From positions 45,342 to 89,462 of the forward strand of contig JAQVFO010000004.1 of NCBI GenBank assembly GCA_028697205.1: a DNA stretch of 44,121 nucleotides, in the 5' to 3' direction. The stretch is from Candidatus Altimarinota bacterium. GTDB lineage: Bacteria; Patescibacteriota; Gracilibacteria; BD1-5; UBA6164. The position numbers and the translations under genes are program-made. The notes beneath the pieces are model-generated. The model worked only from the letters and a program-made list of their open reading frames with translations. It had not been told where the DNA came from and searched no databases. Shown one piece after another: positions 28,489 to 43,137 of the stretch (position 1 is the first letter of the stretch; each line of letters opens with the position of its first letter).

Positions 28489-31482
28489 ATGAGTATAAAA
28501 AAAGTAATCTCAGATCTTGTTGAAAAGTATGAACAAGATAGAGAAAACTATATAAATCTAAAGTATAATGAAACTCAATTAAGAAACGACTTTCTTGATC
28601 CCTTTTTTACTGCTCTTTGATGGGATATAAATAATTCTCAATGAAAGACAACAAACGAAAGAGAAGTTATTTTAGAAGAATCTTTAAAAGCTAATATATC
28701 TGAAAACTCAAAAAAACCTGATTATACATTCCGTTTATTTTCAGAAAGAAAATTTTTTCTTGAAGCTAAAAAACCTAATGTTAAAATTGAATCAAATTCA
28801 GATAGTGCTAAGCAAGTTCGTCGTTATTGATTTACAGCTAAATTAAAAATATCAGTATTGTCAAATTTTGAATATTTATCAATATATGACTGTTCAGAGG
28901 AAGTTAAAGAAAGCGATACAACAAATACAGCTATTATTAAAAGATACTATTACAAAGATTATGTTAAAAATTTTGAAGAAATATATAGTTATTTAAGTAA
29001 AGAATCTGTTTACTCATGAAAATTTGATATAATTTGGTCTGATATTGAAAGTAGACTTAATCATTTTAGTGTAGATGATTTATTTTTAAAACAAATTAAC
29101 GAATGGAGACTTTCTCTTTGAAGTGAAATATATAAACATCAACCTTGAATAAATGAGTTAGAGTTAAATGATTTAGTACAGAGTTATATAAACAGTATAA
29201 TATTTTTAAGAGTATGTGAAGATAGAAATTTAGAAGAATATAAAGAACTTTTATCTTTTGCTTCAAAAAAAGATTTTCAAGCACTAATCAATAAATTTGA
29301 AAAAGCAGATAAAAAATATAATTCTTGATTATTCAATCAAAAACTGGCAAATAAAATTATTTCAGATAATAGTTCTATTTTTTGGAAAATAATAAATAAA
29401 TTATATTATCCTGAAAGTCCTTATTCTTTCTCTGTTTTTTCATCTGATATTCTTTGAAATATCTACGAAATATTTCTTGCAGAAAAACTAAAAATAGAAA
29501 ATAATAATGTATTTTTAATTAAAAAACCTGAAAATATTGATAGAGATATTGTAACAACTCCAACCAATATTATACAATCTATATTAAGAGATACAGTAAT
29601 TTCTTATTGTGAATGAAAAAGTGATGACAATATTTTTAACTCAAAGATTGCTGATATATCATGTTGATCTTGAGCATTTTTATTAGAAACTTTTCAACTT
29701 TTGAATGACTTTTTTATTGACTATTATTTACAAAGTGATAAAGATAAACTCATACAAATAGGAATTAATTCATACAAATTAAAGTTTGAAGTAAAGAAAA
29801 AAATATTGGTTAATTGTATTTATGGTATAGATAAAGATTATAATGCTGTTCAAGCATGTAAATTTTGATTATTATTAAAACTTTTAGAAGAAGAGGATAA
29901 TAATACTATACCTAATTTAAAGCCTATATTACCTTCTTTAGATAATAATATAATATTTTGAAACTCTTTAATTGAATCTGACTATATTAAAAATACAGAA
30001 GATATTACAGATATAAATCCCTTAAATTTATGAACAGAAAAATTTGATATTATTATATGAAATCCCCCATATCTCAAATCTGAGGATATGAAAAATATAA
30101 CACCTAAAGAGTTAGTATTATATGAAAAATATTATAAATCAGCTTATAAACAGTTTGATAAATATTTTTTATTTATTGAAAGAGCTTTAAAATTATTAAA
30201 AACAAATTGATATTTTTGATTTATTGTACCAAGTAAATTTATAAAAGTTTGATCTTGAAAAGAATTAAGAAATATTTTAAAAGAGTCTAAAAATTTAACA
30301 AAACTTGTATCATTTTGAGCAAATCAAATATTTAAAGATAAAACAACATATACATGTTTGTTATTTTTAAATAAATCTTCAAATGAAGTTTTTAAGTATA
30401 CAGAAATAAATAACTTTAATGATTGGAAAATTCGTAATATAAAAGATGATATCTATGATACTATTGAAATCGACTCTTTAGATACAGATAATTGGATATT
30501 AGTTCCATGAAATTTAAAAGAAGTATTTCATAAAATTAATTCTAAAAGTATAAAACTTGAAGAGTTACTCTGAGATTGAAATATTTTTAATTGAATTCAA
30601 ACTAGTGCAAATAAAGTTTATATTCACAAGCCAATTAAAGAAGATGAAAATTATTATTATTTTATTAAAGATAAAAATACTTGGAAAATAGAAAAAGATT
30701 TAACTAGACCATATTTTCAAACATCTAACTGAGATGATAATTTAAATACATATCGTAAGTTTCAACCAAATAGTTTTGTTATATATCCATATAAAAAAAT
30801 AGATGATAATATTGAATTAGTTTGATTATCAGAATTAGAGAAAGATTATCCTTTTGCATATAATTATCTTAATACATATAAAACTGAACTTAATAATGAT
30901 AAAAGAGATATTAAACCGACTCCAAGGACTGAAAATGAATGGTATCGCTATTGAAGACATCAAAGTTTAGATAAATGTGAAATTGATAAAAAAATAATAG
31001 TATGAGTCTTATCTATTTGAAATAAATATGCCATTGATGAATATAAAACTTTGATATCTTCTTGATGAACAGCTGGATATTGTATTATAAGTTTACCAGA
31101 TAATTTTAGTTACTCTATATATTATATTCAGGCACTACTAAATTCTAAATATTTAGAATGGTATTCTTCTTTGATAGGGGAAATTTTTAGATGATGATAT
31201 ATAGCTAGATGAACAAAAGTACTAAAGCAATTGCCAATAATTAAAATTGATTTTTCTATACAAGAACAAAAAGAAATACATGATTCTATAAGTAATTTAC
31301 AAAAAGAGTTAATTGATTTAAATGAAAAAATTGAGCAATCAATTGATAGAAACAAACTACCTTTACAAAGAATATTTGAACAAAAGAAATTTCAATTAGA
31401 TTCTAATTTACAAGAATTATTTAATCTTTGAGATGATGATAATTTAATACCTATAATATCTAAGATATATGAAATTAATTAA
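28489..31482 (+). CDS. Type IIG-like restriction-modification protein (nuclease, N6-adenine methylase, specificity)
   Basis: A 997-aa protein. An N-terminal PD-(D/E)xK-like nuclease shows KPDYTF (Asp78) followed by FFLEAKK (Glu92, Lys94). The methylase core has SAM motif ADISCGSGAFLLE near residue 388 and catalytic IGNPPYLKS (N525-Y528). The C-terminal third (after about residue 640) looks like a target-recognition domain (ISSGGTAGYCIISLP, ALLNSKYLEWY) followed by a coiled helix (IQEQKEIHDSISNLQKEL). It would cut and methylate DNA at one target. It is the first gene of the defence operon and overlaps the next gene by 14 nt. Confidence 0.88.
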
Positions 31483-33073
31483 AGATGCTTCATGACAAAA
31501 ACTAAGAGGCTGATTTTATACACCTGAAAGAATAGCTCATTTTATGTTAAAATGGGCTTTAAATGGTAGAGAAAATGCAGATATTTTAGAGCCTAGTTGT
31601 TGAGATTGAGTATTCCTAGAACAATTATGAAATAATAGTTTCAATTATAATTCGATTACATGAATTGAGTTAGATATTATAGAGGCTAGAAAATCAAAAG
31701 ATTTAAATATAAAGAATAGTGAAGTAATAAATTCAGATTTTCATACTTTTTGTAATTCAACAAATAAAAGATTTGATATTGTTATATGAAATCCTCCTTA
31801 TATTCGTTATCAATACTTTGATAAAAAACAACAAGATGAAGCTGAAAAAATATTTAAAAAAGTAAATATAAAATATTCAAAACTAACTAATGCTTGGGTA
31901 TCTTTTGTTATATGATCTTGTTTGTTATTAAAAGAACAATGAAAAATTTGATTTGTTTTACCTGCAGAACTTTTACAAGTTTCCTATGCTAAACCTTTAA
32001 GAAATTTTTTGGCTCATTTTTTTCATAAAATTAATATTATATCTTTTAAAAAATTAGTTTTTCCAGATATACAGCAAGAAGTAGTATTATTACTTTGTGA
32101 AAAGAATTGAATCGATAAACACTTGATAGAACATATAGAAGTTACTGATATAGATGAATTGGAAAAAATAGATTTAAATCTATTAAAAACACCAAAAAAA
32201 GAAATTGATTTTGAGGAAAATAAATGGACTTTTTATTTTCTTGAGCAAGATGAAGTTGACTTAATTGAGAAAATTAAACACTCAAATCTAGTTCCTAAAA
32301 TTAAAAAATATGCTGATGTCGAAGTATGAATAACTACCTGAGCAAATGATTATTTTTCTGTATCAAATGAAATAGTAAAGGATTTTTCATTAAATGAATT
32401 TGCAAAACCTTTGATATGAAGAAGTATACAAGCAAATAGTTTAATATTTACAGAAGAAGATTGGTATAAAAATAATAAATCAAATATAAAAAGTAATTTA
32501 TTGGTTTTTAAAGAAAAAAAAGAAATAAAAAATAAAAAAGTTTTAGATTATATAAAACTTGGAGAAGAAAAATGAATTAATAAATGATATAAATGTAAAA
32601 TTCGTGATGAATGGCAAATTATTCCTTCAATAAAACTTTCAAATGCTTTATTTACTAGAAGAAATAATCTTTTTCCTAAACTTATTGAAAATTTAGCAGA
32701 AGCATATACTACTGATACTATGCATCGTGTATTTATAAAAGAAAATGTTAACAAAAGATCTTTTATTGCTAGTTTTTATAATTCTTTATCTTTTGCTTTT
32801 TCTGAAATAGTTTGAAGAAGTTATTGATGATGAGTATTAGAATTAATGCCAAGTGAAGTTGGAGATATTTTATTACCCTATAATGAAAGCAATAGCGAAT
32901 TATTAGATACTTTAGATATAATGATTAGAGAAAAAAGGAATATTGAAGAAATATTAGATTATTCAGATAATATTATTTTAAAAAAATGATATGGTTTTAC
33001 TGATAAAGAAATAAAAACTTTTAGAAGAATTTGGAAAAGATTATCTTGAAGAAGATTGGGAAGAAAGAATTAA
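31469..33073 (+). CDS. N6-adenine DNA methyltransferase with recognition domain
   Basis: A 534-aa methylase whose ATG overlaps the preceding stop. GGFYTPERIAHFML opens the fold, SAM motif ILEPSCGDGVFLEQ is at residues 39-52, and catalytic GNPPY is at 107-111, as in the TaqI/Eco57I group. GKIGFVLPAELLQVSYAKPL and the later GRSYGGGVLELMPSEVGDI fit a target-recognition half. It methylates adenine in a specific site. It may protect the host from the fused nuclease encoded just upstream, forming a two-methylase system, or it may have its own target. Confidence 0.9.
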
Positions 33074-33098
33074 AAATAATATCTAAGTATTATAAAAA

Positions 33099-35156
33099 AT
33101 GAATATTACAAGAATTGAAGTTCAAAATTATAGGCTACTCAAAAACTTTTCTATTGATATTGAAAAAGAGTTATCTTTAGTTATAGGTAAAAATAACTGC
33201 TGAAAAACTTCATTACTCACCGTATTGGATAAGTTTTTAAATGGAACAGCGAATAGTTTTTCTTTTAATGACTTTAATTTGGATTATAAAAAAGAATTGA
33301 GGGAAAACATAGAAGGACTAACTTCTACGATTACTGAAGCAACAGGAATAAAATTGAAAGTATTTATAGAATATACTGATAGAGATAATTTATCAAGTAT
33401 CAGTAAATTAATGATGGACCTAGATCCAACAAATAATAAAATTTGCCTATTATTTGAGTATATCTTAACAATAGATGAATTAACAAAAATTAAAGTTGAT
33501 TACAATACATTCAAAACATTAGAAACTGCAAAAACAAATCCAAAAGACATTAATTACTTCCTAAGCAATAATTATACAAAATACTTTAGCTTAAAGAAAA
33601 AATCAGTTGAATTAGGTAATGATAATATTTTTATTGATATTGAAAAAGAAAAAATATCATTGAAAGACATTATAAACTATAAATATATTAAGGCGAATAG
33701 AGATGTATCAAATAAAGAACTTGATAAATCATTATCGTCTCTTTCATCTAAAATTTATGAAGGAATAGAAACTGATGAAGTTCATCAAACAAATATAGAT
33801 AAATTTAAAGAGGCCTTATGTGATACAGATAGCTCACTCGATATAGTTTATGAAGATTTATTTGAGACAACTATAGATAAGGTAAAAAAATTTGGAGGAA
33901 TTAGACCTGATGATACAAAAATAACAATCACATCTTCATTACAGCATAAAGATCTTTTAAAATGAAATACAACCGTTAAATATTTGCATGATGATGTACA
34001 TTTACCAGAAAATTATAATGGTCTTTGATATATGAATCTTATAAGCATGATTTTCGAAGTTGAAATACTTATCAATGAATTTAAAAGAACTAAGTACGAA
34101 AAACCAGCAGATATTAATTTACTATTTATTGAAGAACCAGAAGCACATACACATCCTCAAATGCAATATGTTTTCATAAAAAATATAAAAGCATTACTTA
34201 AAGATTGTATATGTCGTCACGATTGAGAAAATAGAGATTTGCAATACATTATAAGTACACATTCTTCTCATATAGTTGCTGAAAGTGAGTTTGATGATAT
34301 TAAATATTTAAAAAGAGATAAAAATAGTGTATTAGCAAAAAACCTTAAAGATTTACAAAAAGAATATACAGAGGTTGGTGAAGATCAAAACTATAAATTT
34401 CTAAAGCAATACCTTACATTACACAGAGCCGAGCTTTTTTTTGCTGATAAGGCTATTTTTATAGAATGAGATACCGAAAGAATACTTCTTCCTGCTATGA
34501 TGAAAAAAATAGATCAAGATAATCCAGATAATCCTCTTCTTTCTCAAAATATTTCAATTATTGAAGTTTGAAATTATTCACATATTTTTGAAAAGTTTAT
34601 TGATTTCTTTGGGATCAAATCTTTGATTGTTACAGATATTGATAGTGCAAAGTCTGATAGAACTAAATGCAAAGTTGATGATATAAATGCCATTATGACT
34701 ACAAACTCATCATTACATTTTTTTTATGGAAATACAAACACTCTTTCTGATTTTAAAAGTAAAGCCTTAGAAGATTTGAAATTAAAAAAGGATGAAACTA
34801 CTAAAAAATGGATAAATAATACAAATTGATATTTGGTTTGTGTTTATCAAACAAAAGAAAATAATTCAAATTCTACTGAATATCATGCAAGAAGTTTTGA
34901 GGATTCATTTTTCCATTTGAATCGTCAATTTATTATTGATAACAAGGATACTTTTAAGAGCTTAAAAAATATTGATTATTTTGAAGATATCACAAAAGAT
35001 GTTTATGAACTAGCTGAAAAATGTATTGATAAAAAACCAGCTTTTGCAATTGAAGTCTTATTAAATAGCAAAATAGACGAGGTTACAGGAAAGAATTTTA
35101 GTAACTGGCAAACTCCAGCTTATATTAACCAAGGACTACTATGGCTGAAAGATTAA
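33099..35156 (+). CDS. gajA: Gabija GajA: OLD-family ATPase-TOPRIM endonuclease
   Basis: A 685-aa OLD-family protein. SMC-like ATPase with Walker A GKNNCGKT (30-37) and Walker B/D-loop LLFIEEPEAHTHPQMQ near 340-355, then STHSSHIVAES. TOPRIM metal site: IFIEGDTE (E456-E460) and VTDIDS near 509-514. In Gabija, GajA nicks DNA at specific sequences when nucleotide levels fall during phage infection. It contains seven TGA Gly codons against about fourteen GGN; the Walker A Gly35 and TOPRIM Gly457 are both TGA, so it works only under code 25. It overlaps gajB by 16 nt, the usual gajA-gajB order. Confidence 0.88.
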
Positions 35157-37039
35157 CATTAGAAAGAGAAGTTCAAGAAATACTTTCCCATATTGATAAT
35201 GGGGATAATTTTTTATTGAGTGGTGGTGCAGGAAGTGGTAAGACATATTCACTCGTTCAAGTAATCAAGCAAGTTATTGAAGAAAATCCAAATTCAAAAG
35301 TTGCTTGTATGACATATACAAATGCTGCTGTAAAAGAAATTGAAGAAAGAGTCAATCATAAGCACTTGGTTGTTTCTACTATTCATGATTTTCTATGGGA
35401 TAACATAAAAACTTTTCAGAAAGAATTAAAAGAATCACTGGTTGAATTGATAAATAATGAGGAATCTGAAATAGTACATCCAGAAGACACTACAATTCCT
35501 ATTGATTTTTTTGATATTTTGGAAAATGGAATTCAATATAAAGAGTATTTGAGAATACAAGAAGGGATAATTTCTCATGATGAAGTTTTGGCTTTAGCAA
35601 ATTATGTATTTCAAAAATATCCAAAAATATGTGATATTCTAAAAGATAAGTTTAAGTTTATTTTTATAGATGAATATCAAGATACTAATAAAAATGTAGT
35701 AGAAATATTTCTTGTTCACTTAAAACAAGGTTTCAAAAAAAATATTATTGGATTTTTTGGTGATTCAATGCAATCAATTTATGATGATGGTATAGGTAAT
35801 TTAGATGAATATAAAGGTGCTGAAAATTGAAAAGTAAAAGAGGTAAAAAAACAACAAAATAGAAGAAATCCACAATTTGTAATTAATTTAGCAAACAAAA
35901 TAAGAACGGATGGATTACAACAAAATCAATCTACTGATACTAAAGCTCCAAACATGGAGGCTGGCATTATTAAAGAAGGAAGTGTAAAATTTTATCATTC
36001 AACCAGTAATAGTCTTGAAATTATAAAAACTCAATTAGGTTGGGATTTTAGTGATTCTAAAAAAACTAAAATTCTAAACTTAACACATAATCTTATTGCA
36101 CCAAATGCAGGTTTTGAAAATTTAATGGAAATTTATGATAAAGATCCTATAGTTGGATTGAAAAATGATATTCTAGAAAAAATTAAATACAATAAAAAAA
36201 ACTCAAAGCCTGAAATTCAAATTCAGAATACAGATACTTTTGAGAATGTAATTGATAAATTTCAATTACAAAATAGACAACATGAACTTAAAAAAGATAT
36301 TATTATTAGGGATTATTCACTATTATACAATCAATTGAAAGATTTGCCTTTTTCTAATGTAAGAAAAATATATTTAGATAAAGATCAACTTGTTGATGAT
36401 AAAAAACAAGATCAAGATGATGAAAATAAAAAAGGCTCAAAAAGAGATGATCTAGTAAAACATCTTTTTAAAATTCAAAATAATATTTCATTATACAATA
36501 ATGGAAAATATAATGAATTTATTAGAAAAACTGAGTATAAAATTATATCTATTGAAGATAAGAGTATTTTAAAAGACAAAATAGATGAATTAAGTAATGT
36601 TTGAGATAAAACAATTGAGGAAATAATAAATAAAGCTGATGAATATGAGATATGTAAAAAAGATGATAAATTACAAAGATTTATTACAGGAAAAGAATAT
36701 GTTTTTAATCGTGTAAAAGAAGTTAAATTTTCAGAATTTCAAAATCTTTATAATTATCTTGAAGGAAATACTCCTTTTTCAACACAACATAAAACAAAAG
36801 GGACTGAATTTGATAATGTATTAGTAATATTAGATAATGGTAATTGGCCTAATTATAACTTTGAAAAAATGTTTCTAGGTAGTAATTCGGCAAGTGTAGA
36901 AAGTCGTACTAGAAAAATATTTTATGTTTGCTGTACTCGCTCAAAGGAAAATTTAGCAGTTTTTTTTCATAATCCATCTCAAGATGTAATATTAAAAGCA
37001 AAAGAATTATTTTGAGAAGAAAATGTTATAAGTATATAG
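35141..37039 (+). CDS. gajB: Gabija GajB: UvrD-like helicase
   Basis: A 632-aa superfamily 1 helicase. Walker A SGGAGSGKT (27-35), motif Ia CMTYTNAAVKEIEERV, Walker B FIFIDEYQDTN near 172-182, motif III GFFGDSMQSIYDD, and C-terminal motifs V/VI HKTKGTEFDNVLVIL and KIFYVCCTRSKENLAVFF. GajB senses or unwinds DNA ends and activates GajA. Only three in-frame TGA codons occur (35828, 36602, 37013) against more than twenty GGN glycine codons, strikingly unlike its neighbours and suggesting origin in a standard-code organism. The ATG at 35141 lies inside gajA. Confidence 0.88.
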
Positions 37040-37071
37040 TAATATTAACTTAATTTTTTATAAACTAGTAA

Positions 37072-39348
37072 ATGAATATAGATTACAGTAGATTATCTCC
37101 AATAGATTTTGAAAATTTAGTAAGGGATATATCTGATACTATTAATAAAGTTTTATTTCCTTCAGAGACTTTTTCAATATGAAAAGATTGATGAATAGAT
37201 GTAAGAAAAACATCAGACTGAAAAACAACTATCATTCAAGCGAAACATTATAAAGACTGGGATAATTTATGGACTGTTTTAAAAGAAGAAAAAGAGAAAG
37301 TTGATAAAATAAAACCTGATCGTTATATAGTTGCAACATCCCTTGAACTTTCGAAATGAAACGTAGATAAAATATATAATTTGTTCCAACCATATATAAA
37401 ATCTACTGATGATATTTGGTGGAGAAGTAGATTAAGTAACTTTATAGAAAAATATCCATCTATTTTAGATAGAAATATGAAATTATGGTTAGATAGTTCT
37501 ATAATATTAAAATCAATAATTAATAGTTGAAATATTGAAAAGAATAAAACATTACAAAATGATATCGAGAATAAAATAAAATTATATGTTGAAAATGAAT
37601 GACTTGAAAAAACAATAAGGATTCTAAATAAAAATAATTATTGTATAATTTCTTGAATTCCATGAATATGAAAAACTACTCTTGCAGAAATGGTTTCTTA
37701 TTATTTTATAGAAAAATGATATAAATTATTTAAGATAACTAATGATATTGATGAAGCATATAATTTTTTATGACATGATGATGAAAAAGTTATATTTTAT
37801 TATGATGATTTTTTGTGAAGTAATTTTCTAGATTATTGATTACAAACTAAGAATGAAGATTCAAATATAATAGATTTTATAAAAACTCTAAACAGAAACC
37901 CTCATAAAAACAAAAAACTAATTTTCACGACAAGGGAATATATATTAAAACAAGCATTAACTAAGTACAATAAATTTTCAGAATCTTGATTAGATAATCA
38001 TAAATTTATAGTTAATATTAAGCAATATTCATTGAGAGATAAAATGCTTATATTATTTAATCATTTATATTTTTCATCGTTACCACAAAATATAAAATAT
38101 GATATAGTAAATGAAAAATTATACAAAGTATTGTTTATCGAAAATAAAAGAACAAATCAAAAGTGAACAATCTTTGAAGAAAGATTCAATCCTAAAATAC
38201 TTTCTATGATTTTATTGGATGATAGAATAAAAAAAGAGAATTATAAAAATTGAAAAGACTTTATTGAAAAATTAAATTTAGTACTATCAAATCAAAATGA
38301 ATTATATGAAGATGTATTTATTAATAAAATATCTGAAACATCTCAACATTTGTTATTAATTTTATTTAGTTATTGATGAAAATGCTTAATAGATATATTA
38401 AAAGATACTTGGAAAGAATATCAAAAAATTAAAAATTTGCCTATTTTAGATAAAGATTGGTTTATTTCATTAAAAGAACTTGAAGGTACTTTTACTATTA
38501 CAAATAAATGAGAAATTAATTTTATTGATCCATTTATTAATGACTTTTTTATATATTATCTCAATGATAAATTGGATATTTTAAATGAATTAATACTATT
38601 ATCAAAAAAATGGTCACAAATAGAATATTTATATAGTGCTTTCAAATGAAATAAAATATTTTTAAGTGATAAAAATATTTTAGATGTTATTGAAAAAAAA
38701 TATTTTGAATTAGAAAAAGATAAAGCTGAGAAACTCTTATTTATTTGTAAATCTTTTCCAAAATTAAAACAATTTACACAAGAACAAACTATTATTTTAA
38801 TAGCCTCTGATGAAGTATATGACCTACATAATATGTTGGTTTTATTAATGAAATATGAAATAATAGGTGGTATTGATTATAATGAGTTTATTGAGAGATA
38901 TATAGATTCTTTTTGAAGAAGGTACGATATTAGTGATATTTATTTTTTAGTAAATAATACAAATTTAAATTTAATTAAATTATTTTTCTCAAAGTTTTGA
39001 TATGATACTAAAGAAATAGAAAGTACCATAAATAGTAGGATTGATTATTATTATTCAAAAGCAGAAGAGATAAAAGGATATATTGATAGATATGACAATG
39101 ATCCTAAATATATTATGGATAATTTCAGTAAATCTTATTTAGATGAAGATTTAAATGATTTAGATCTATTATGTAGATTTATAGGAGATAATTCAACTTA
39201 TGATTTATTATATCATGTTGCCTGAGAAATTGAAAGTGTGTACAACGATATAGAAGCAGATTATTATCATGATGATCGGAAAGAAGATTATTATGCAAAT
39301 AAATCTGAGATTAGTTGATATGATGATTTGTTTAGTAAATTAATTTAG
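37072..39348 (+). CDS. Mrr-like restriction endonuclease fused to STAND-type P-loop NTPase
   Basis: A 758-aa protein. The N-terminal endonuclease (1-130): SPIDFENLVRDI with Glu14, GKDGGIDVRKT with Asp43, and TIIQAKHY with Gln56-Ala-Lys58, the Mrr-type D-QxK site. Then a P-loop NTPase: GIPGIGKTT (195-203), Walker B VIFYYDDF near 240-247, and sensor KKLIFTTREYI. The rest is helical, probably a sensing domain. This nuclease-NTPase-sensor order is that of antiviral STAND proteins (Avs-like, nSTAND3 type), which oligomerise on detecting a phage protein and cut DNA. Gly is mostly TGA. It lies 32 nt after gajB. Confidence 0.82.
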
Positions 39349-39363
39349 TTTTTATTATAATTT

Positions 39364-40431
39364 ATGCCTCAACTAAAACCATACTCACATTACAACGATT
39401 TATATGATAAATTTACAATAGAAAATTGTAGAAAAATTATATCTGATACAATTAAACATGAAGAATCTAGGGATCAACCTTGAGAAAGAAAATTTAGATC
39501 AAATGTATATGAACTTTATGTTTCTTTTGAAGTAGTAGATAGAGCATTGAATAAAAATAAAGTTATTGAAAAACGGATGAAGTCAGATAAAGAAAAAGAT
39601 GATTTTATAAGTTCTACAAAAATACCTAAACTTAAATGTAATTTTTGTTCTAAACAAATGGATTTAGATGATACGAGTTTTATGAGTTGAGTTTGAGATG
39701 AAAAGGATAGATTATTATTTATATTTCAATGTAATGATTGTAATAAGAGAAGAGCTATATATAATGATTGAGAGGAGATTATTCCTAAAAAACATTTATG
39801 TCCTAATTGTAATACTGAATTGAATAAGAAATCAGATATAAAAAATGATACACTTACAATAAATTACTTTTGTGATAAATGCAGTTATAAAGAAAGTGAA
39901 ATTGTGGATTTAAAAGTTGAAAATATAGAAGAAAAAGAAGATAACAATTATGAAGAAGATAGAAAGAGATTTTGTATATCAGAGGAAGAAACATATAAAC
40001 TAAAAAATTGAATTCATGATTTTTATGAGTGAATTTATGAAGTTATAAATTGAACTGATCCTGTAAGTATTGCAAAAAGAAAAGAACAAGAGAAATTTAG
40101 ACCATTAGAAAATATTAAAAGATTTACTATAACTGAGTTAGAAGAATATTTATCACCAATATTAACTGAAAAATGATTTATTAATTTCTCATTATGAAAA
40201 GCAGAAATTGATAAAGAAATTCATGTTTATTTTACAGTTATTGACAAGAGTGATAAAAATCAAAAACATTCTAGTAGAATAAGACTTAGAAAAATTATTA
40301 ATGAAGCAATTTCTAATACTAATTGGTTCTTTATGAATAGTTGAAAGTTAGAAGAAAAATTATGAATTATCCAGTGAAGATTAAAATGAGTTGATAATAA
40401 TGATGAATTGTTAAAATTAATTGAAAAATAA
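39364..40431 (+). CDS. Double zinc-ribbon protein (355 aa)
   Basis: ATG 39364, 15 nt after the STAND gene. Two zinc-ribbon modules lie in the middle: CNFCSKQ...CNDCNKRR and CPNCNTE...CDKCSYKE, each with CxxC pairs that can bind Zn. Before them is a helical segment with SNVYELYVSFEVVDRALNK. After them comes an alpha/beta C-terminal domain (RFTITELEEYLSPILTEKGF, IHVYFTVIDKS, SRIRLRKIINEAI). No catalytic motif is evident. Position suggests nucleic-acid recognition in a defence context, or an accessory to the nuclease-STAND gene. Function unknown. Confidence 0.75.
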
Positions 40432-40453
40432 AATTTTTTATTAATTTTTTTAA

Positions 40454-40493
40454 TATAATAATAATTACAAATTTATTAATTAACTATTATTAT
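40454..40493 (+). promoter_or_regulatory. Promoter-like leader, near-duplicate of the one at 42547
   Basis: TATAAT at 40454-40459 followed by an AT-rich leader to the ATG at 40494. The sequence (TAATATAATAATAATTA..., TTTATTAATTAACTATTATTAT) closely resembles the leader before the 42583 gene. No clear -35 or ribosome-binding site is seen. Confidence 0.4.
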
Positions 40494-40973
40494 ATGGATT
40501 TTAACTTACAAGAATATTATGATGACCTTTATTTAGAAAGTAGTTTTCCTACATTGAATGAAGTCTATAAAACAGATATTGTTACATTATGAAAATTAAT
40601 GGAAGTGGATGAAAACTCTACTTTAGATTATCCTATAATTGACGACATGGACTTATGGGAAGAATATACTGATAAAAATGCAGAAATGATTCCTTGGAAT
40701 ATCGTTGATCCGAATAACAAAAGATATATTACAATGTATTATATTCCTTACAAAGATATAGCTTATTATGAAAATGAAAAGGCACTTTCTTGAGATATGT
40801 ATAAAGCAATAGATGATGTACTTTGGGAGATTAAAAGTTATGATTTAACAGGTAAACAATATTCTCAATTAAAAGAAAAAATAATAAAAGAAGCAAATAA
40901 ATTCATAGATAGTATTTATAAAAAATATTGAACTCCTAAATGGTGGCATCCAGAATATTTTGATTTTAATTAG
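40494..40973 (+). CDS. Hypothetical protein (159 aa)
   Basis: ATG 40494 to TAG. Very acidic N-terminal half with many Asp/Glu/Tyr (QEYYDDLYLESSF, DDMDLWEEYTDKN), then a helical C-terminus ending YGTPKWWHPEYFDFN. There are no membrane segments or recognised motifs. It is a separate unit with its own promoter-like leader, downstream of the defence operon. Confidence 0.72.
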
Positions 40974-41034
40974 TATTTTAATTTTTCCAAAAAAACATAT
41001 AATCATAACATATTTTAATTTTTAATTTAATATT

Positions 41035-41475
41035 ATGCAAATAGAATTTACAAAAGAACAATATGAATCATTATTAAAATTAGTCTATTGTTGAAATTTA
41101 ATTATAAATTGAGCAAGATTACCTCAAGATAGAATTGATGAATATGATAATTTATGTAGTCATATTTATTCAAAATGAAAAGATTTCTGAAAAGAAGATT
41201 TAACTCAATATTGGGAAGAAGAAAAAAAATATATAGCAAGTAATTTCTTAGAAACAGATGAAGATGTTGAAGAATATATAAAATTTTATAATGATGATAT
41301 TTTTTGGAATACTCTTGTTGATGGATTAGTTGATAGAGATTTAGAAGAAAAATCATGAAAAAAATCAAATAATATTGAAGAAAAGATAGACCAATTATCT
41401 GAATATTATTGGGAAGAATTTAGTAAAAATTCAGTAAAAAACCTAAAAGTAATAGAAAAAAATAATAAAAAATAA
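41035..41475 (+). CDS. Hypothetical acidic protein (146 aa)
   Basis: ATG 41035 to TAA, preceded by a TATAAT-containing leader. Residues are mostly charged and helical (EYDNLCSHIYSKGKDFGKED, YWEEEKKYIASNF, ETDEDVEEYIKFYND). It is similar in character, though not obviously in sequence, to the preceding acidic gene. A terminator follows. Not recognised. Confidence 0.7.
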
Positions 41476-41510
41476 ATTTTTATTATTCTAAAAAATCTCT
41501 GGGCTTTAGA

Positions 41511-41545
41511 AAAATAATGGCTATAATTAGCCATTATTTTTTAAT
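41511..41545 (+). terminator. Intrinsic terminator
   Basis: Stem AAAATAATGGCTA / TAGCCATTATTTT with a 4-nt loop and T run. It separates the acidic gene from the phosphoesterase. Confidence 0.88.
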
Positions 41546-41554
41546 TATATTAAT

Positions 41555-42469
41555 ATGAAAAACATTAATGAAATATTAGATATAACCAGTGATCTTCATA
41601 CTGATTTTATATACAACAACTTTAAAAGTATTTACTGAAAAAATTGAGTATTAAAACAAAAAAATGATTATTTAGTCATTTGTTGAGATATTAACGAAGA
41701 TATTTGAGTTTTACAAAAATCTTTTGATGATATTATTGATAATACTAAATATAAAAATATTATAACGACCTTCTGAAATCATGATTTACGGATATCTGCA
41801 GAGGATTTAGACTGTAATATAACTAATTCAATTCAGAAATATGAATTTTTAATAAATCATTTTCATCACTATAGAGATAAAATACATGTAATAGATAAAG
41901 AAGATTTTATGATTCCTAATAGTAACTATATTATCACGGGTAACATGTGATGGTATAATTATACTATTAATCCTGTAGATAAATTTTATTTAACTAAATA
42001 CTTCAACGCAAATTTCGATAAAATGTCATTTTGATCAACAATTTATAATGATAAACTATATATTAAATTTAATGAGAAAATTAAATGAAATATAGGTTTT
42101 TCGAATTACTTAGAAGATAAATTAATTCAAAGACTTGAAAAACTAAAATGATATAGTAATAATCATGAAATTATCGTTATGAGTCACATAAAACCTTCAA
42201 ATCAGTTAGAAAAAAACTCAAAGTACTTTCTAGAATATTCTATGGAGTTATGGGAAGAAATAATAAAAGATAAACATAAATGAGTTAAAAACTATAATTT
42301 AGAAAATATATATTGAAATGCTTTCTTTGTGAATAATAATTTATCAAAGATTTATGAGATATATAATGTGAAATATGCTATTTATTGACACACACATTTT
42401 CATTGAGAGCAAGAAATCAATTGAATAAAATATATTTCAAATGCACTTTGATATTATTGATTATCTTAA
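41555..42469 (+). CDS. Calcineurin-type metallophosphoesterase
   Basis: A 304-aa enzyme with the five metal-binding motifs: SDLH (D13, H15), CGDI (G44-D45), GNHD (74-77), MSHI near residue 211 and YGHTHFHG near 282. These form the two-metal site of calcineurin-like phosphoesterases acting on phosphomono- or phosphodiesters, possibly nucleotides or nucleic acid. It starts 10 nt after the terminator, so its promoter is likely inside the terminator region or it is read through. All motif glycines are TGA. The substrate is unknown; location beside defence genes is suggestive only. Confidence 0.9.
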
Positions 42470-42546
42470 TAGCATTTTCATTAATAGAATTGAGATTAAA
42501 TATCTACAAATATCTAAATTTTAAAATATTTTTATTCAAATATTAA

Positions 42547-42582
42547 TATAATAATAAGTATTTATTAACTAATTATTATATT
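42547..42582 (+). promoter_or_regulatory. Promoter-like leader, near-duplicate of the one at 40454
   Basis: TATAAT at 42547-42552 with the same TAATATAATAATAA...TTTATTAACTAATTATTATAT pattern before the start codon. It is about 31 nt from -10 to ATG. Confidence 0.4.
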
Positions 42583-43137
42583 ATGAAACATGAGTTAAAA
42601 ATAAATATAATTTTAACAAATCAAATAGACATTGATAAGAAAAAAATTATTGTTGAATTACTAAAATTATGACTTGATAAACCAAATGTAGATATTAATT
42701 GAAATAAAATAGAAATTATTATAAAAACTTTTGAAATTAGCTTTAATTTAGATGTTTTAGATATTATATTTTACGTAATATTTAAATGTAAAATAATCGA
42801 TATGGAGGAAATAACTTATAAGTTATCATATTATGAAGATTATTGATTATTATTTCACTATTTTCTTTTAGATTTTAAGTTAGAAAATGAAGAAAAAGAA
42901 TATTTAACAGATTTTCTAAAAAAACTAGTTGAAGCCCCATATTTTTTATGAAAAAAAGAGTATTCAGAATGAAAAATAAAAATTAAAAATTATTACATTA
43001 TAAATAGAGAAAATTTATTTAAATTTTTTACATTAGATTCCAAAATTTTAAAAATCAATAATCCAGAGTTAAAAGAAAAAATGATTGATTTTATTATAAA
43101 CACTAGATCAAGACTGTGAAAATTTATATTTGTATAA
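42583..43137 (+). CDS. Hypothetical protein (184 aa)
   Basis: ATG 42583 to TAA. The N-terminal part is a charged alternating beta/alpha stretch (MKHELKINIILTNQIDIDKK), with a central hydrophobic helix (SFNLDVLDIIFYVIFKCKII) and a basic C-terminus (FIINTRSRLGKFIFV). There is no signal peptide. It does not resemble a family I know. Stands alone with its own leader. Confidence 0.68.

Follow-up and report, generated by a model that had tools for sequence, protein, structure and literature searches.

In the Gabija system of Bacillus cereus VD045, an OLD nuclease with a TOPRIM domain lies adjacent to a UvrD-like helicase, and the catalytic set of the nuclease, GajA, consists of E379, G409, and D432/D434 (PMC10781630); a recent preprint proposes that the targets of Gabija are linear DNA ends that RecBCD does not protect (PMC12407980). 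Here we describe a pair of the same kind at positions 33099-37039 of a 44,121-base stretch of DNA (the window; G000:C13:45342-89462, 22% G+C) from a Candidatus Altimarinota genome of the Gracilibacteria (1.27 Mb, 19 contigs, 99.1% complete) that reads TGA as glycine (genetic code 25). Like B. cereus Gabija, the pair keeps Walker A, the TOPRIM E-G-DxD residues, and the helicase motifs; unlike it, GajA is 685 rather than about 575 amino acids (aa) long, and both genes contain in-frame TGA. The nearest GajA relatives, L039 (Deltaproteobacteria WB1_Bin_3) and L041 (Desulfobacterales GMC8_bin_28), are 65-68% identical and share the overlapping gajA-gajB order, but their Gabija genes are standard-code, with no in-frame TGA and a G+C content at third codon positions (GC3) of 0.25-0.30. 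No paper naming both Gabija and Gracilibacteria was found in the literature searched.

Gabija itself is already well known, and the interest of this locus lies in the half-converted state of the pair: TGA makes up 33% of the glycine codons of gajA and 10% of those of gajB, compared with 87% (125/144) in the island's eight remaining genes. We think it likely, with a probability of about 0.8, that the pair was acquired horizontally from a standard-code bacterium and then partly converted to TGA within its code 25 host. The two genes are as follows.

33099-35156, + strand: gajA, class 2 OLD nuclease (ABC ATPase plus TOPRIM), 685 aa, stop TAA
35141-37039, + strand: gajB, UvrD-like superfamily 1 (SF1) helicase, 632 aa, stop TAG

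Identity of the Gabija pair

The genes are adjacent and co-directional, the start of gajB overlapping the end of gajA by 16 bases (median 19 in relatives). GajA matches the PADLOC GajA profile PDLC00079 over its full length (929 bits, E 6.5e-280) and contains the Pfam domains AAA_15 and OLD-like_TOPRIM, while GajB matches PADLOC GajB profile PDLC00135 (791 bits, E 2.8e-238) and, at the profile level, the solved GajB chains 8jqb, 8iud, 8j4t, and 8sm3. A sequence search of GajA against solved GajA chains gave no match at E 0.001, and since these chains cannot be reached by sequence alone, GajA represents a divergent Gabija branch. The predicted GajA model (pLDDT 79) has Gabija GajA entries as its top four Foldseek matches (E 2.5e-17), and the fold is closest to solved GajA 8x5i/8sm3 (Z 18.5, root-mean-square deviation 6.0 over 476 residues).

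GajA residues E456, G457, G491, D513, and D515 are invariant among 15 diverse relatives, as are G30, G35, K36, and T37 of Walker A (GKNNCGKT, at the TGA-coded Gly35), and the GajB helicase motifs GGAGSGKT and DEYQD are likewise kept and invariant. E456, G491, and D513/D515 match E379, G409, and D432/D434 of B. cereus GajA in order and spacing (PMC10781630), and Gly491, judged by its distance from Glu456 and Asp513/Asp515, is probably the glycine that the TOPRIM domain keeps invariant, the equivalent of G409. As judged from sequence profiles and predicted fold, 33099-37039 is a complete, intact Gabija pair, whose nuclease and helicase would, by homology, assemble with each other to cleave phage DNA.

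Genetic code

The window belongs to a code 25 genome. Specifically, i) long open reading frames (ORFs) fill the window once TGA is read as glycine; ii) TGA falls on conserved glycine sites in both GajA and prolyl-tRNA synthetase (ProRS); iii) a search for release factor 2 (RF2) gave no match above the curated prfB cut-off, the sole match scoring 243 against 370 bits and itself containing 16 TGA; and iv) a tRNA with anticodon UCA, presumably charged with glycine, is encoded on contig C6 (L163:1823-1901, minus strand, 79 bases), with an encoded CCA and the seven-base anticodon loop CTTCAAC. The tRNA searches also found tRNA-Gly(UCC). ARAGORN labels the UCA tRNA SeC, the Rfam tRNA search does not list it, and its D arm looks unusual. 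That UGA encodes glycine in this bacterial group is established according to literature cited in PMC6851277.

Glycine codons of the pair

The 21 glycine codons of gajA comprise 7 TGA, 9 GGA, 4 GGT, and 1 GGG, and the 29 of gajB comprise 3 TGA, 12 GGT, 9 GGA, 3 GGG, and 2 GGC; a preliminary description of this DNA had given the same seven and three TGA, with GGN for most glycines, and its counts and coordinates are exact. The deficit of TGA relative to the other island genes is highly significant for gajA (p = 5e-7), gajB (p = 1e-15), and both pooled (p = 7e-18). TGA shares of the two genes do not differ significantly (p = 0.07), so that one transfer is enough to account for both. Every other gene in the window uses TGA for 50-100% of its glycine codons. 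The preliminary description was right about the high share in the flanking genes but overstated it as nearly every glycine, the actual value being 79-90%.

The per-gene count of TGA against GGN was extended to a 737 kb sample (58% of the genome; 599 ORFs, 14,092 glycine codons), in which TGA accounts for 80% of glycine codons, and equally low genes proved rare. Genes with at least 15 glycines have a median TGA share of 85% and a 5% quantile of 56%, and among these 376 ORFs gajB ranks 6th lowest and gajA 11th lowest.

The ten TGA occupy codons 35, 289, 310, 376, 457, 491, and 577 of gajA and codons 230, 488, and 625 of gajB. Those at the most telling sites are listed here.

33201-33203, + strand: TGA, Walker A Gly35 of GajA, the first in-frame TGA; glycine in 79/79 relatives, GGA in L039
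34026-34028, + strand: TGA, invariant Gly310 of GajA
34467-34469, + strand: TGA, GajA Gly457 beside the catalytic-type Glu456 of TOPRIM; glycine in 80/80 relatives
34569-34571, + strand: TGA, invariant Gly491 of GajA
35828-35830, + strand: TGA, codon 230 of gajB, the first in frame

All seven gajA TGA correspond to a GGN glycine (GGA, GGG, or GGC) in L039/L041, and four of the seven sites are invariant in all relatives. TGA is found at 7/14 conserved and 0/7 poorly conserved glycines of GajA, a weak and unexplained trend. The assignment of TGA to Walker A Gly35 and TOPRIM Gly457, made from the sequence at the outset, is confirmed at the codon level and extends to Gly491. It had also been suggested that the pair is now locked to code 25, and this holds: under the standard code (table 11) gajA yields only 34 residues, stopping after MNITRIEVQNYRLLKNFSIDIEKELSLVIGKNNC, and GajB stops at codon 230, which ties the pair to code 25. 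Restart within the genes may occur, but could not restore Walker A.

Distribution and phylogeny

Among 77 genomes of the order, same-genus genomes included, only this one carries the pair (absent from the 76 others), and GajB is absent from the 287 other genomes in a sample of the class (present in 1/288). GajA groups with L039 and L041 with support of 100/98, and GajB groups with that of L039, the only complete partner (80/88). Both relatives are standard-code organisms, with 0 in-frame TGA in their gaj genes and neighbouring ORFs that use TGA stops. The trees that the preliminary description had called for thus place the closest homologues of both proteins in standard-code bacteria, none in code 25. 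A first quick tree had pointed to separate origins of gajA and gajB, which the careful tree does not support. Among viral contigs we found no GajB and a single GajA at 49%; a plasmid source was rejected, its best candidate being Pontibacter kalidii (GajB 63%, GajA 52%), with a GajA more distant than those of L039/L041. In a 2.7-Mb, 500-contig relative whose bin may be mixed, OLD-like ORFs (L033/L038, G019:C47) lack any TGA.

Origin of the pair

Two further comparisons bear on the history of the pair. Private glycines (those found in at most one quarter of relatives and missing from L039 and L041) are TGA in 0/10 cases in this copy and in 50/86 cases in the native ProRS of the family (p = 1.7e-4), a comparison with a single control gene in which new glycines may arise more easily as GGN; the absence of TGA at these sites suggests that most of the divergence probably took place where TGA was unused, and that the transfer came late on the branch. 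The protein superfamily is not TGA-averse as such, because native OLD nucleases of two code 25 relatives use TGA for 30/36 and 34/37 of their glycines.

The gene identities, the codon counts, the outlier status of the pair, its phylogenetic isolation, its standard-code relatives, and the TGA at invariant glycines are direct observations; from these we infer the direction and recency of the transfer and the GGA to TGA route, and from homology the defence function. A Gabija pair from a standard-code and most likely AT-rich donor would have been inserted into a defence island of the host, and synonymous change, GGA to TGA in one step, would have brought about 10 of 50 glycine codons to TGA, roughly one quarter of the conversion needed to match the host. 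To be decoded, the active-site glycines would now require the host UCA-anticodon tRNA and the absence of RF2, so that a standard-code cell would make only truncated proteins from the pair; transfer inward would have been free, and transfer outward would now be blocked.

Several observations weigh against this reading. Codon usage outside glycine places gajB at the 40th percentile of the host (host-like) and gajA at the 3rd (mildly unusual), so that glycine supplies most of the foreign signal; some GC-richer code 25 relatives use little TGA (12-30%) in native genes; the borders show no mobile genes and no convincing repeats, only AT-rich chance matches; no relative with an empty site was found, and sister genomes lack the flanking genes as well; the placement of GajB in its tree is only moderately supported; and the nearest known relatives are only 65-68% identical, too distant to identify or date the donor. 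The host-like codons of gajB fit an AT-rich donor, and the gaj genes of a spirochaete of 26% G+C (L042) would look host-like too (24-30th percentile). Acquisition from a standard-code donor and conversion under way, as first proposed for this locus, are supported, while the terms recent and slow cannot be dated and the donor itself is unsampled. Of the two outcomes named at the outset as refuting the proposal, neither occurred: the closest relatives are not code 25 bacteria, and TGA use across the genome is high.

Alternatively, the donor might have been another code 25 bacterium, or its phage or plasmid, with few TGA, in which case the ten TGA would predate arrival. Code 25 genomes low in TGA do exist, since the TGA share of the ProRS gene spans 12-93% within one family, and code-11-compatible phages of such bacteria have been reported (PMC10746230); yet genomes with about 30% TGA have a GC3 of about 0.3, relatives at the GC3 of the gaj genes (0.11-0.16) show 40-93% TGA, 10/50 is low even against a 40% expectation (p = 0.002), and no code 25 relative of the pair was found among the genomes of the order and class surveyed above. 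We regard such a donor as improbable, if not negligibly so. For the region around the ProRS gene in one code 25 family (L171-L200), the TGA share ranges from about 27 to 93% and correlates with GC3 at a Spearman coefficient of -0.64.

Very little probability attaches to long residence of the pair, with selection for translation efficiency keeping TGA low as in highly expressed genes. Low TGA shares (11-46%) and a preference for GGT are indeed found in an S-layer-like gene and in those of the ribosomal proteins S1 and S2, but the non-glycine codon scores of the gaj genes (-0.11 and -0.07) differ from those of highly expressed genes (+0.03 to +0.14), the pair also uses GGG and GGC, adjacent defence genes have 79-90% TGA, and the distribution of the pair is sporadic. 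We give still less credence to an assembly artefact in which a standard-code contaminant was joined into the contig: the assembly has 19 contigs, and one of these, C2, is low in TGA and could itself be contamination, but a plain standard-code contaminant could not contain ten TGA in frame, most of them at glycines that are conserved, and the pair is separated from its neighbours by gaps of only 25 and 32 bp within a single co-directional island.

Code reassignment and gene exchange

A common view is that codon reassignment cuts a genome off from gene exchange. If the pair was acquired as we propose, the locus would represent a two-gene transfer caught mid-conversion, in which codons that depend on the code already specify invariant catalytic glycines, and would suggest that the code barrier is one-directional. 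It also suggests that the TGA share of each gene could rank the order of arrival of defence and mobile genes in code 25 bacteria without recourse to phylogeny. More generally, and tentatively, since we hold it a little less likely to be right than wrong, reassignment of a stop codon to sense might act as a one-way valve, in which standard-code defence genes enter, GGA to TGA changes at active-site glycines trap them, and the TGA share of each gene clocks its residence time. The code-11-compatible phages of Gracilibacteria and Absconditabacteria (PMC10746230) offer a parallel, in that TGA-free foreign genes are directly usable in a code 25 cell; those phages stay compatible with both codes, whereas this Gabija pair has already lost that compatibility.

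The surrounding island

The co-directional block at 28489-43137 consists of gajA, gajB, and eight further genes, among them the following.

28489-31482, + strand: Type IIG restriction enzyme-methyltransferase, code-adapted, TGA in 35/39 glycines
31469-33073, + strand: M.Eco57I-type methyltransferase, TGA in 22/28 glycines; ends 25 bp before gajA
37072-39348, + strand: Mrr-like plus nSTAND3 NTPase (PADLOC candidate PDC-S73), TGA in 25/30 glycines; starts 32 bp after gajB

Three TGA-rich genes (355, 159, and 146 aa) follow the STAND gene at 39364-41475, and none has a Pfam or PADLOC match. A search for the empty site by way of the flanking methylase and STAND genes recovered only distant homologues in relatives (24-42%), so that the insertion point cannot be read.

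Other genes low in TGA

The remaining low-TGA genes of the genome are mostly of two sorts, GGT-rich genes that are probably highly expressed and genes of mobile elements or defence. The former include an S-layer-like protein, ribosomal proteins S1 and S2, and a pyridine-nucleotide oxidoreductase; a gene for an S-layer-homology protein (L126:8868-12356) has 97 glycines, of which 58 are GGT and only 11 TGA. Very highly expressed genes in this genome seem to avoid TGA. A low-TGA, G+C-rich ORF at L122:6497-6952 has no family match and is probably spurious.

The contig that contains the window also carries a gene for a PtuA/retron-TOPRIM-like ATPase (L120:1925-3946; G000:C13:21925-23946, minus strand), which uses TGA for 1/32 glycines and is a second candidate for recent arrival. 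Contig C2 (L136, G000:C2:1-12365), whose genes together use TGA for 5% of glycines, is either an arrival newer than Gabija or a contaminant contig; it carries genes for SspB, for an SspC cut short at residue 560 of about 1,050, for the M and S subunits of a Type I system, and for an IS1595 transposase, as well as a TnsE-like gene containing 2 TGA.
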